Source: Bacteroidales bacterium
GTDB taxonomy: Bacteria; Bacteroidota; Bacteroidia; Bacteroidales; P3
Length of the DNA: 39,455 nt
Direction: 5' to 3'
Assembly (NCBI GenBank): GCA_017962615.1
Contig: JAGCUZ010000017.1
Location: 1 to 39,455 of the forward strand
In this document: one piece after another, positions 3,493 through 30,906 of the stretch
Layout: each line of letters begins with the position of its first letter
How positions within the stretch are numbered: position 1 is the first letter of the stretch
The notes under the pieces: generated by a model
Told to the model about the DNA's origin: nothing
Seen by the model: the letters and a program-made list of their open reading frames with translations, nothing else
The model's database searches: none
Translations under genes and position numbers: made by a program

Positions 3493-4911
3493 ATGAAATC
3501 AAAATTACTCGTATTCTCGGTCTTGACAGTTTTAACATTGGGGTCAGCGTGGGCCAAACCCGTTGACAGGGCAACCGCTTGCGCCGTCGCAACCAATTTC
3601 TATGCCATGAAATGCAAGCATGCCCCCGAATCATTGAGCGCCACCATAGCCTACGAGGCAACTGCGCTCAGCGGCAAGGATGCATCCAGCCCCAGTTTCT
3701 ATGTGGTCAACTTCGGAAACGAGGGCTTTGTCATAGTGGCCGGAGACGACAGGGCGCAGCCGGTGCTGGCCTTCTCGGACGAAGGCGCTTTTGTGGCCGA
3801 GAACATGCCTGCCCATATCCGCTTTTTCCTGGACGGGTACACGGAAGGGATACAGTATATAACCGACAATCAGCAATACAGTGATGAAGCCACCACGCAG
3901 CAGTGGGAATCGCTGCTTTCCGACAGCCATCCAGCGCCGAAAGCCGGCGATGTGGTCGTAGGACCGCTGCTTGGCAGCAACAAGTGGGCCCAGACCATGT
4001 ATTACAACGACTTATGCCCCGAGGATGCTACCGGCAACGCCGCCTATGGCGGTCATGCGGCTGTAGGGTGCGGTGCCATTGTCATGGGACAGGTGATGCG
4101 CTATTGGCGTTTCCCCACCACGGGCAACAGCCGACGCTCCTACAACAGCAGCCGTTACGGTACGCTCTCGGCCAACTTCGGCGCCACCACCTACCATTAC
4201 GAGAATATGCCCAACGCACTCACCCAATCGTATCATCCCGACAGCTGCGTGGAGGCTGTGGCCACTTTGCTGTATCACTGCGGCGTCGCGGTCAAGATGA
4301 ATTACGGTCCGGCCGCGAGCGTGGCCAACTCGAACAACATCGTGTCGGCACTCTCGACCTATTTCACATACCCCACCACCGTGCGGTATATTGAGAAGGC
4401 AAGTGTCACTTCGTCGCAATGGCTTGATTACCTGAAAGGCGAGCTCGACGAAAAGGCTCCTTTCATGTACGGCGGCAGCGGCAGCTATGGCGGGCACGTG
4501 TGGACCTGCGACGGCTATCGGGACGACGACTATTTCCATTTCAACTGGGGCTGGGGCGGTCAGCAAAACGGATACTTCGCCCTCACAAGCTGCAGCTCGT
4601 ACGGATTCAACAGCAACCATGCCATCATTATAGGCATCCGCGGTCCTGAACTGCCGGAAGCCATCGACGAGCATATCGCTGGAGATGTCAAGATATTCCC
4701 CAACCCTTCGGACGGCATGGTGTACGTGCGTACAGAATCACAGCAGGCACTGGAGCTGCAGGTTCTTGACATATCAGGCAGAATGCTTTCGCACAAAAGC
4801 GTGACCGGCAACGAGTTCACCGTGAACATGTCGGAGTATGCCTCGGGTACGTACATTCTTAGACTGGTCACAGAAAAAGGTGTTGAGACTCGCAGAATTA
4901 TCAAGAAGTAA
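3493..4911 (+). CDS. C10 (streptopain-like) cysteine protease with T9SS sorting tail
   Basis: This is a 472-aa secreted protease. Order: signal peptide (cleavage near residue 21); Spi-like inhibitory prodomain (about 25-140); C10 peptidase domain (about 155-385); type A C-terminal sorting domain (about 395-472). The catalytic Cys is Cys193 in VGCGAIVMGQVM and the catalytic His is His335 in GGHVWTCDGY, followed by the NWGWGG block at 351-356, the hallmark of SpeB-like enzymes. The tail starts VKIFPNPSDG and ends with TYILRL and a basic RRIIKK, as in cargo of the type IX secretion system, so the mature protein is likely exported across the outer membrane and either released or anchored there. 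An ABC exporter gene begins 39 bp downstream and may be co-transcribed. No T9SS machinery genes are in the window. Confidence 0.92.
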   Translation: MKSKLLVFSVLTVLTLGSAWAKPVDRATACAVATNFYAMKCKHAPESLSATIAYEATALSGKDASSPSFYVVNFGNEGFVIVAGDDRAQPVLAFSDEGAFVAENMPAHIRFFLDGYTEGIQYITDNQQYSDEATTQQWESLLSDSHPAPKAGDVVVGPLLGSNKWAQTMYYNDLCPEDATGNAAYGGHAAVGCGAIVMGQVMRYWRFPTTGNSRRSYNSSRYGTLSANFGATTYHYENMPNALTQSYHPDSCVEAVATLLYHCGVAVKMNYGPAASVANSNNIVSALSTYFTYPTTVRYIEKASVTSSQWLDYLKGELDEKAPFMYGGSGSYGGHVWTCDGYRDDDYFHFNWGWGGQQNGYFALTSCSSYGFNSNHAIIIGIRGPELPEAIDEHIAGDVKIFPNPSDGMVYVRTESQQALELQVLDISGRMLSHKSVTGNEFTVNMSEYASGTYILRLVTEKGVETRRIIKK

Positions 4912-10576: not shown

Positions 10577-13453
10577 TTGAAGACAATACTACATAATGTG
10601 CATATCGATGGATGTCAGCAAGACATCATCATTGATGGTTCGCAGGTAGTTGATATTGTCGCGACCGGCAAGACATTCCAAGAAAGCTGCGAAACCGACA
10701 TCGAGGATTGTACAGGCCATGCCGCCTTCCCCACCATGGCTAACGCCCATACCCATGCGGCAATGACTCTGCTGCGAGGTTGTGGCTCCGACGCGCCTTT
10801 GCACGAGTGGTTGACAAACTGGATATGGCCAAAGGAGGCAAAACTGACACCCGACATGGTGTACTGGGGCACACGCCTGGCCTGCCTTGAGATGATAAAA
10901 AGCGGCACGACGGGCTTCGCCAACATGTATTTCTATCTGGACGAAGAGGCTCGCGCCGTGGCCGACAGCGGCATACGTGCCATGCTGGGCTACAACATAC
11001 CTGACAGGGAGCCAATGGAGGGCATACAGAACCGCGTGGCAAAGTTTGCAGAGCAGCACTCCAGTGTCAATGGGTCAGATGAGCAGATGCTGCAATTCGC
11101 AATAGCCCCTCATGCCATATACACCGTAAACGGTGAACTGCTGGAATGGAGTGCAAAGACAGCCAACGAACTGGGCTGGCACTACCTCATACACATGAGC
11201 GAGACCCTGAAAGAGGTTGACGACTGCCTGCATCAGCACGGATGCCGCCCATACGAATATCTACAAAGACTCGGCATACCAGAGCTGCTGGGCGAAAGAC
11301 TTGTGGGCGCTCACAGTCTGCACCTGAACGGCAATGAGATTGAGATAATTGGCAGAAATCACTGCTCAGTGGTGCATAATCCAAACTCCAACCTGAAACT
11401 GGGGTCGGGATACAAGTTCCTATACAAAGAGCTGAAAGCGGCCGGAGCCAACATCGCCCTCGGCACAGACGGATGCGCGTCGAGCGACAACCTCGACATG
11501 CTTGAGGCAACCAAACTGATGGCTCTGCTGCAAAAAGGTTGGCGTAACGACCCCACCGTGATGCCTGCCAAGGAGGCTCTGAGCGTGGCAACCGAGAACG
11601 GCTTCAAGGCCATGGGCGTTAACGCCGGAAGGCTGGAGGCGGGCCGCAAAGCCGACCTGATGCTTGTAGACCTCGACAACACTGCCATGGCAACAGGCGA
11701 CGACTGCACCGCCAACCTGGTGTACGCCGCAAAACCGGAGGCAATTGACTCGGTGATGTGCAACGGTAAGTGGGTGATGCGCCATCGGACGGTAAAGGAC
11801 GAGAAACTTATCATAACCGAGGCCCGCAAGGCTGCAAAGAAACTACTGACGGTACTTACGGCTATAATCATCCTGACATGTACGGCATGCCACCGCAATG
11901 ACCCGACGGAGGGCAAAATGATATTCCGCTACAACGAAAGCTCGGGCATAAACACCCTCGACCCCGCTTTCGCCAAAGACCAGTCGCTGATATGGGCGGC
12001 GACGCAGCTGTACAACGGACTCGTGACAATGGATTCCAACCTGGAGGTGCAGCCGTGTATTGCCAAAAACTGGACCATCAGCCCCGACGGGCGGACCTAC
12101 ACTTTCACCCTGAGGGACGACGTATTTTTCCACAAGAACGCCCTATTCGGCAACGAAGACTCGACACGCCGTGTGACAGCGGGCGACTTCGTGTACAGTT
12201 TCAACCGCATACTCGACCCCAAAGTGGCATCGCCAGGACTATGGATTTTCAACAATGTGGACGCTGCCAACGGCTTCACCGCCAAGGACGACTCCACGCT
12301 CATCATAAGACTAAAGCAGCCATTCGCCCCGTTCATCGGCCTGTTGGGCATGCCCTACTGCAGCGTTGTGCCACGCGAAGTGGCAGAGCACTACGGGGCC
12401 GACTTCCGCAAACATCCGTGCGGCACAGGGCCGTTTGCTCTGCAGCTGTGGAAAGAGGGGGTGAAACTGGTGTTGAGGCGTAACCCGCTGTACTTCGAAA
12501 AGGATGAATCGGGCGCATCCCTGCCCTACCTCGACGCTGTGGCCGTGACGTTTATAGTGGACAGGCAGACGGCTTTCCTGGAGTTTGTGAAAGGCAACCT
12601 CGATTTCATGAACTCGCTGGCACCGTCGTACAAGGATGAGATACTGACACGCACGGGACAGCTGAAACAGAAGTATGCAAAAGATATCGACATGGTATCG
12701 ACTCCATACCTCAATACAGAATACTTAGGATTCCTTATGGACGACAAGGAGTCGCCGCTGCACGACAGAAGGGTGCGGCAAGCCATCAACTACGGCTTCG
12801 ACCGCCGCAAGATGATGAAATACATGCGAAATAACGTGGGCGTGCCGGGCTGCTACGGATTCATACCCTGCGGACTGCCGGGATACGACACCACTATCAC
12901 GCCGCGATACGAGTACAACCCTGTCAAGGCCAAACAGCTTCTGGCCGAAGCCGGCTATGCCGACGGCAAAGGGTTGCCTACGCTGACGCTGGCAACGACG
13001 GCAACCTACGTGGATCTATGCAAATTCATTCAGCAGCAACTGGGTCTTCTTGGAATGGACATACGCGTTGACGTGAATCCTCCCGGAGCACTGAGGGAAC
13101 AGATTGCCCAAAGCAAGAGTCAATGGTTCCGGGGGTCGTGGATTGCCGACTACCCCGACGCGGAAAACTACCTGTCGCTGTTCTACAGCGAAAACTTCTG
13201 CCCTGCCGGCCCGAACTACACGCACTTCGCCTCGGCAGAATACGACAAACTGTACAGAAAAGCCCAGTCGGAGACAGACGACTCTACAAGGACTGTTATG
13301 TACAAGACAATGAACCGGTTGATAATGGAAGAGGCTCCTGTAGTGGTACTATATTACGACCAAATACTGCATTTCACCCACAAAAACGTGACAGGACTGA
13401 GTTCAAATGCCATGAATGCATTGGACCTAAGAAAAGTAAAAATTAAGAATTAA
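10577..13453 (+). CDS. Fusion: MtaD/SsnA-type amidohydrolase plus OppA-type binding lipoprotein
   Basis: One open frame of 958 codons joins two proteins that are normally separate. Residues 1 to about 415 form a complete amidohydrolase like S-adenosylhomocysteine / 5-methylthioadenosine deaminases: metal ligands His58 and His60 (NAHTHAAM), His206 (HMSET), His246 (GAHSLHL) and Asp298 (LGTDGCASSDN). Residues about 424-438 are a signal-peptide-like segment ending in a lipobox-like CTAC (Cys438). Residues about 445-955 form a family 5 solute-binding protein (OppA/DppA): DFVYSFNRILDP, CGTGPF, RRVRQAINYGFDRRKMM, GFIPCGLPGY. The start is TTG. No start codon lies just before the signal-like segment; the nearest is ATG 11777 (Met401). 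If made as one chain, the deaminase would be cytosolic and the binding protein periplasmic, tethered by the hydrophobic segment. No oppBCDF genes are near. A frameshift or assembly artefact merging two overlapping genes is the main alternative. Confidence 0.9.
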   Translation: MKTILHNVHIDGCQQDIIIDGSQVVDIVATGKTFQESCETDIEDCTGHAAFPTMANAHTHAAMTLLRGCGSDAPLHEWLTNWIWPKEAKLTPDMVYWGTRLACLEMIKSGTTGFANMYFYLDEEARAVADSGIRAMLGYNIPDREPMEGIQNRVAKFAEQHSSVNGSDEQMLQFAIAPHAIYTVNGELLEWSAKTANELGWHYLIHMSETLKEVDDCLHQHGCRPYEYLQRLGIPELLGERLVGAHSLHLNGNEIEIIGRNHCSVVHNPNSNLKLGSGYKFLYKELKAAGANIALGTDGCASSDNLDMLEATKLMALLQKGWRNDPTVMPAKEALSVATENGFKAMGVNAGRLEAGRKADLMLVDLDNTAMATGDDCTANLVYAAKPEAIDSVMCNGKWVMRHRTVKDEKLIITEARKAAKKLLTVLTAIIILTCTACHRNDPTEGKMIFRYNESSGINTLDPAFAKDQSLIWAATQLYNGLVTMDSNLEVQPCIAKNWTISPDGRTYTFTLRDDVFFHKNALFGNEDSTRRVTAGDFVYSFNRILDPKVASPGLWIFNNVDAANGFTAKDDSTLIIRLKQPFAPFIGLLGMPYCSVVPREVAEHYGADFRKHPCGTGPFALQLWKEGVKLVLRRNPLYFEKDESGASLPYLDAVAVTFIVDRQTAFLEFVKGNLDFMNSLAPSYKDEILTRTGQLKQKYAKDIDMVSTPYLNTEYLGFLMDDKESPLHDRRVRQAINYGFDRRKMMKYMRNNVGVPGCYGFIPCGLPGYDTTITPRYEYNPVKAKQLLAEAGYADGKGLPTLTLATTATYVDLCKFIQQQLGLLGMDIRVDVNPPGALREQIAQSKSQWFRGSWIADYPDAENYLSLFYSENFCPAGPNYTHFASAEYDKLYRKAQSETDDSTRTVMYKTMNRLIMEEAPVVVLYYDQILHFTHKNVTGLSSNAMNALDLRKVKIKN

Positions 13454-16299: not shown

Positions 16300-16307
16300 G
16301 CCGTCCT

Positions 16308-16343
16308 CTATCGTATCTATCCCATCTATCGCATCTATACAAT
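16308..16343. repeat. Nonamer array (CTATCGCAT family)
   Basis: Four 9-nt units in register (CTATCGTAT, CTATCCCAT, CTATCGCAT, CTATACAAT); the last unit runs into the ATG at 16342. Related arrays lie at 19985-20030 and 33886-33931. Confidence 0.8.
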
Positions 16344-19940: not shown

Positions 19941-20033
19941 TTTTAAGTTATAAGTTCTAAGTTTTAAGTGGCTGACGTACCACACTCTATCGTATCTATC
20001 ACATCTATCGCATCTATCCTATCATCTATTGTA
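19941..20033. repeat. Composite array: heptamers, cap, nonamers
   Basis: Starting right after the upstream stop: CTTANAA heptamers (on the minus strand; 19941-19967), the decamer cap GCGTCAGCCA in variant form (GTGGCTGACG on the plus strand, 19968-19977), then CTATCGCAT-type nonamers (19985-20030). It lies before pyrB. Confidence 0.85.
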
Positions 20034-30713: not shown

Positions 30714-30728
30714 GATATTTATTATTTT

Positions 30729-30906
30729 GTTGATATGTTTAATGTTGATACGTTGATATGTTGATATGTTGATACGTTGATATGTTGATATGTTGATACA
30801 TTAATATGTTTATCTGTTATTCGCGTCAGCCAATTTTTAATTTTTAATTATTAATTTTTAATTATTATCGCGTCAGCCACTTAAAACTTAAAACTTAGAA
30901 CTAATA
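30729..30906. repeat. Composite array: octamers, cap, heptamers, cap, heptamers
   Basis: In order: GTTGATAY octamers (30729-30815; seven perfect units at 30744-30799 in a C,T,T,C,T,T,C pattern); cap GCGTCAGCCA (30823-30832); TTWTTAA heptamers (30834-30868); cap GCGTCAGCCA (30870-30879); CTTAAAA heptamers (30880-30906). The last part overlaps the end of the dus gene and encodes its stop. Confidence 0.92.

Follow-up and report, generated by a model that had tools for sequence, protein, structure and literature searches.

The window, a 39,455-nt stretch of DNA from the assembly of a Bacteroidales bacterium (GCA_017962615.1, contig JAGCUZ010000017.1), carries a gene in which a deaminase-type amidohydrolase and a family-5 solute-binding lipoprotein are joined in frame. 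A single open frame spans both, as the first-pass annotation had reported, and the stretch AKKLLTVLTAIIILTCTAC that it had quoted between the two halves is indeed present. The frame has a TTG start and a TAA stop. The TTG codon is the earliest possible start, since an in-frame stop upstream bars any further one, and the start residue coincides in alignments with that of several split deaminase relatives. In order, the protein is composed of the amidohydrolase, a short uncharged segment, the lipobox cysteine Cys438 and a complete family-5 binding protein (Table 1). Elsewhere in the window, positions 3493-4911 encode a C10 peptidase with a Spi-type inhibitor propeptide and a Por secretion tail. 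A 9-bp unit, TCTATCGCA, is found in tandem at two intergenic places (16307-16338 and 19986-20018), and an 8-bp repeat, TGTTGATA, occurs ~11 times in an intergenic stretch at 30728-30818.

Table 1. Coordinates of the fused gene and its parts in the window
Feature	Position	Strand	Remarks
Whole fused gene	10577..13453	+	958 codons; ortholog of the same structure in G078 (L089:7467-10343, 958 aa)
Deaminase half, residues 1-424	10577..11848	+	Amidohydro_1 at residues 51-400 (Pfam); nearest solved structure 4f0r
Active-site stretch (His58, His60, His206, Glu209, His246, Asp298)	10748..11473	+	Identical in 21/21 aligned deaminases of the genus
Deaminase C-terminal tail, residues 401-424	11777..11848	+	Homologous tails in split deaminases; 11/24 residues identical in G078
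Uncharged segment, residues 425-437	11849..11887	+	Derived from the binding protein's signal-peptide core; uncharged also in G078, 2/13 residues identical
Lipobox cysteine, Cys438	11888..11890	+	Ala precedes Cys in both fused proteins
Family-5 solute-binding protein, residues 438-958	11888..13450	+	SBP_bac_5 at residues 490-872; 372/498 residues (461-958) identical to G078

The Amidohydro_1 match in the first half scores 212.9 bits for a Pfam cut-off of 25. The five active-site residues named in the first-pass annotation (His58, His60, His206, His246 and Asp298) are all present, as is Glu209. These six residues, which make up the HxH, H, HxxE and D pattern of the MTA/SAH deaminases, are conserved in every aligned deaminase of the genus, including that of the genome G078 described below. 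They align with those of the solved MTA/SAH deaminase 4f0r, which is also the best structural match (E 9.7e-73). The NCBIfam equivalog cut-offs are missed, with a best deaminase-family score of 367.9 (cut-off 609) and a score of 241.4 for the named MTA/SAH deaminase model (cut-off 779); we therefore call this half deaminase-type and assign no substrate to it. Thus, the enzyme shares its catalytic residues and its best solved match with the MTA/SAH deaminases of the amidohydrolase superfamily. Nevertheless, the latter, such as 4f0r, are soluble, single-domain proteins with neither a signal segment nor a second domain, whereas the window protein has both. Profile searches of 10 genomes of the genus detected SAH hydrolase in none (0/10). 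A need for the deaminase for want of SAH hydrolase is a weak argument, as G078 carries an MTA/SAH nucleosidase that scores above its cut-off. A role in menaquinone synthesis by the futalosine route was rejected, since MqnA-type VitK2_biosynth was likewise found in 0/10 genomes.

The second half matches SBP_bac_5 over its full length, above the gathering score (272.9 bits, cut-off 32.4), and among solved structures its best match is the binding protein of a peptide ABC transporter, 8upi. The full-length match and the lipobox are in common with the DppA/OppA-type family-5 binding proteins (8upi, 1uqw, 8ay0). These normally have N-terminal export with nothing before the signal peptide, in contrast with the window protein, which has a deaminase in front. 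Residues 427-942 also match the phage protein family phrog_18374, of unknown function (E 1.3e-70).

We surveyed the Opp importer in 10 genomes of the genus, namely the window's own (G000), G078 and eight others. Each of the 10 encodes exactly one SBP_bac_5 protein, exactly one OppC_N protein and at least two proteins matching BPD_transp_1, one of them OppB-like. An OppD-OppF-like fused ATPase, recognised as one frame that matches oligo_HPY twice, is present in 9 of them; none was detected in the window genome, which is 67% complete. Family checks covered OppB, OppC and OppDF of G078, OppB and OppC of G000 and OppDF of G030, with OppB of G078 and G000 assigned by NCBIfam. A cognate Opp/Dpp-type permease and ATPase were thus found at the genome level, with every part at another locus: the OppB-like and OppC-like genes of the window genome sit on contigs different from that of the fusion, and the earlier remark that no oppBCDF lies nearby holds among the neighbouring genes scanned. 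Throughout the genus, as surveyed here, the parts are encoded singly and apart, in G078 with the OppD-OppF-like fused ATPase at L136 (G078:C23), the OppB-like protein at L137 (G078:C14) and the OppC-like protein at L117 (G078:C52). An importer is thus available to the binding domain, and nothing else of family 5 that could replace it was seen among the 10 genomes. In the fused species, a deaminase is attached to the sole domain of this family that was seen.

When 120 genus genomes were searched, one further uninterrupted match came to light, G078:C26, with 67% identity over query residues 1-957 (66% between the two fused proteins). The corresponding frame of G078 is also fused (Table 1), and the two junctions, MRHRTVKDEKLIITEARKAAKKLLTVLTAIIILTCTAC in the window and MRHREVPGETLVKSKVRTLAKQLMAAAAVVLLLLTSAC in G078, align without a gap. 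Synteny extends beyond the gene, as 11 of 13 queried ORFs of the window match the G078 locus with their order kept. The fused query gave one match each in these two genomes, and they harbour the only two fusions, in both cases among the matches listed, in the 120 genus genomes and in 190 genomes of the family that include those 120; fusions of comparable identity would stand high in such a list. Apart from the window's own, no fusion was found among the matches listed for 393 genomes sampled from the order, nor in a sample of 395 genomes from the phylum (E <= 1e-60). A set of 25 loci from named GTDB records comprises no fused gene either. Seven genomes that stood out by long open frames (G105, G005, G085, G116, G106, G130 and G023) were inspected, and none has a fusion with this deaminase. 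In another family of the order, a relative of the deaminase lies inside a 693-codon open frame (G407:C51:44598-45902).

In the relatives, the two genes are commonly neighbours. Among 77 distinct binding-protein rows, at least 50 have the deaminase upstream, two of them fused, the available flank often being only ~1.5 kb. This leaves at least 48 split pairs among the 75 distinct non-fused rows. The split pairs have the same families, order and strand as the fusion. Unlike it, they encode two proteins, and the lipoprotein has its own start codon and a positively charged n-region. An ATG is at position -4 in 17 of the 48 pairs, an overlap of 4 nt, and between -10 and +30 nt in 34, which supports the earlier proposal of an ancestral layout of two closely spaced or overlapping genes. 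Such pairs could fuse through a short frame change. At two loci, a TTG codon overlaps the deaminase stop by 4 nt: at L046:1486-1488 it is the likely start of the binding protein, and at L004:1483-1485 an ATG is found 47 nt further downstream.

The first-pass annotation had also read the residues KKLLTVL as the remnant of an old lipoprotein start. This reading did not hold. Compared unaligned, split deaminases end in tails such as EARRVAKKLLQK*, EAKRVVKKLIKK* and EARRVVKKLIKV*, so that KKLL or KKLI is the C-terminal tail of the deaminase. From one alignment, in which the C-terminal halves of separate deaminases fell onto the binding protein, only the unaligned tails were taken. Based on these tails, we assign AKKLL in the window to the deaminase and only what follows to the signal peptide of the binding protein. 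A remnant start 'MKKLLTVL' was rejected on these grounds, and a small deletion within the 4-nt overlap was dropped as the fusing mutation.

Phylogenetic analyses group the two fused genes together in two trees of three. The fused rows form a clade both in a tree of 46 deaminases (support 100/99) and in a binding-protein tree built with care from 22 rows (support 96/92). A quicker binding-protein tree, of 76 rows, leaves the pair in an open fork of seven. In the deaminase tree, G030, whose genes are separate, branches next to the fused pair, with an unstarred support of 83/88. With a shared junction and kept gene order, the fusion most likely arose in a common ancestor of the two species, each represented by one genome, and has been kept since.

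Between the window and G078, dN/dS (NG86) is 0.32/1.83, about 0.17, for the deaminase half (residues 1-424) and 0.20/1.58, about 0.13, for the binding half (residues 425-958), which shows purifying selection on both. Low dN/dS at dS 1.6-1.8 indicates that the fusion outlasted near-saturation at silent sites with both halves kept. Both halves look functional. Among 81 deaminase positions that are invariant in 19 split rows, 9 (11.1%) are changed in one or both fused rows, compared with a mean of 3.5% (sd 2.4, max 12.0) in control pairs of split rows. For the binding protein, 9 of 201 such positions (4.5%) changed, with a control mean of 2.8% (sd 1.5, max 6.5). The six catalytic residues are not among the changed positions. 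The excess in the deaminase hints at an altered constraint on the enzyme half. The deaminase distance of the fused pair is close to what its binding-protein distance would lead one to expect (z 0.06 among 210 pairs), and each fused row, averaged across all its pairs, lies 0.7-0.8 sd above the distance line.

The junction has several features of a lipoprotein signal. Between the window and G078, 11 of the 13 residues at positions 425-437 have changed, and the segment is uncharged and ends in Ala-Cys in both proteins, as expected if a signal function and a lipobox are under selection. The residue at -1 of the lipobox Cys is A, S or G in 76/76 rows. Over the 15 residues that precede the Cys, mean hydropathy reaches 2.41 in the window (rank 11/76) and 2.45 in G078 (rank 8/76), the 76 rows having a mean of 1.95 (sd 0.36). 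In the fused proteins, the uncharged run amounts to 15-16 residues, and the positive charges ahead of the hydrophobic core are supplied by the deaminase tail. Two features are atypical, the internal position of the signal and a Cys at -3 in the window, found in only 2 of the 76 rows.

We tentatively favour, with somewhat less than even confidence, the view that the gene encodes a processed, two-in-one precursor and not a coupled sensor. Two neighbouring genes, one for an MTA/SAH-type nucleoside deaminase and the other for the genome's only family-5 lipoprotein, of the oligopeptide/dipeptide type, fused in frame, and one ribosome would make one chain. The enzyme half would fold in the cytosol. 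The positively charged tail of the deaminase and the old signal-peptide core would together form an internal signal, through which the binding domain would be exported. Cys438 would then be lipidated, and signal peptidase II would cut before it. The predicted products are a normal lipoprotein for the single Opp importer and an equal number of deaminase molecules, whose hydrophobic C-terminal tail would sit in the inner membrane. The location of the enzyme inside and of the binding domain outside had been put forward in the first-pass annotation; while its KKLLTVL origin fell, that layout stands as the natural reading of a cytosol-type deaminase joined to a lipoprotein-type binding protein. The predicted cut at the lipobox, which had not been considered there, would separate the halves. 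Several observations may argue against such a precursor, namely the -3 Cys of the window, the changes at otherwise invariant deaminase positions, the open fork of the 76-row tree and an in-frame ATG at the junction of G078, from which the binding half could possibly be translated separately. The simplest guess at the reason for keeping the fusion is an equal supply of the two proteins near one membrane, in line with a survey of short gene overlaps that reports their enrichment for subunits of complexes (PMC10666635).

A protein that remains uncut is possible, if rather doubtful. The hydrophobic segment would then serve as the membrane anchor of a bitopic protein, and peptide binding or Opp docking would be coupled to the activity or location of the deaminase. 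The one-chain sequence evidence in two species, the high hydropathy ranks of both segments and the unusual -3 Cys of the window are consistent with this arrangement. Nevertheless, an uncharged run of this length is short for a membrane span, and Ala-Cys was kept in both proteins although the rest of the segment changed. Mainly for the latter reason, we prefer cutting to the uncut form. In a more specific version, which we consider distinctly unlikely, the only family-5 domain, docked on the single Opp importer beyond the inner membrane, would position or switch a purine-nucleoside deaminase within the cell. If so, peptide capture would directly control nucleoside salvage.

Alternatively, most of the binding protein might be made by internal initiation, in G078 from the junction ATG and in the window from the ATG at 11777, the latter yielding a long n-region, with the fused chain being minor or incidental. 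This appears unlikely. The window ATG precedes the Cys by 37 residues, a distance equal to that of the only listed Met of L040; however, the Met that it encodes is also kept in split deaminases (e.g. L003, L043 and L002) and is not necessarily a start. At the junction itself, the window lacks a start codon, as no in-frame ATG, GTG or TTG is present between 11777 and 11918. G078 does have one, but a lipoprotein initiated there would lack any K or R before its Cys, making G078 the sole such case, judged by the nearest Met, among the 69 rows in which a Met precedes the Cys by 12-45 residues. Furthermore, the 20 nt preceding this ATG contain 30% A+T, compared with 40-95% ahead of the starts of 13 window ORFs, a comparison made across genomes.

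Decay or neutral joining, with one half functionless, is highly doubtful. The slightly higher rate of change at otherwise invariant deaminase positions would fit such a scenario, as would the presence and placement of the deaminase, both of which vary among lineages, and the MTA/SAH nucleosidase of G078, which may make the deaminase dispensable. Against it stand the low dN/dS of both halves, the conservation of all six catalytic residues and the ordinary ratio of the deaminase-to-SBP distances. In addition, the fusion holds the only copy of either family found per genome, for the deaminase among the matches listed. Lastly, a frameshift or assembly slip in the window genome, with its 71 contigs and partial completeness, was rejected as a very unlikely origin of the fusion, since an independent species has an identical junction layout of equal length in a different DNA sequence, and the relatives are thus not all encoded by two separate genes.

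Fused genes, bitopic proteins and precursors that are cut internally are all familiar; what appears to be new is the pairing described here. We found no description of a fusion between a deaminase and a family-5 binding protein in the open-licence literature. SgrR-type regulators likewise carry a C-terminal family-5 binding domain after an N-terminal domain that works in the cytosol, where it binds DNA. In contrast with the fusion of the window, which keeps the signal core and the lipobox, the binding domain of SgrR is itself cytosolic. The FbcH cytochrome b/c1 precursor of Bradyrhizobium is cut at an internal signal sequence to give two working proteins, as proposed here. Nevertheless, FbcH gives rise to membrane cytochromes and is cut by signal peptidase I, whereas the window protein combines a soluble enzyme with a lipoprotein site. 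Bitopic receptors such as PknB or CadC, in which one membrane span joins a large cytosolic N-terminal domain to a periplasmic C-terminal sensor, resemble the layout of the uncut form. They harbour a kinase or DNA-binding domain and have no lipobox, unlike the fusion, whose N-terminal domain is a metabolic deaminase.

As a signal peptide normally must be N-terminal, the fusion of a cytosolic enzyme with an exported lipoprotein is unexpected. It is nevertheless kept by selection in two species, beside many close relatives with separate genes. The fusion thus allows one to test in a natural setting if the lipoprotein machinery can process a signal that is internal and preceded by a folded enzyme of ~46 kDa. 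It similarly provides a natural test of whether the products of the gene pair, in which the short overlaps suggest coupled translation, work together.
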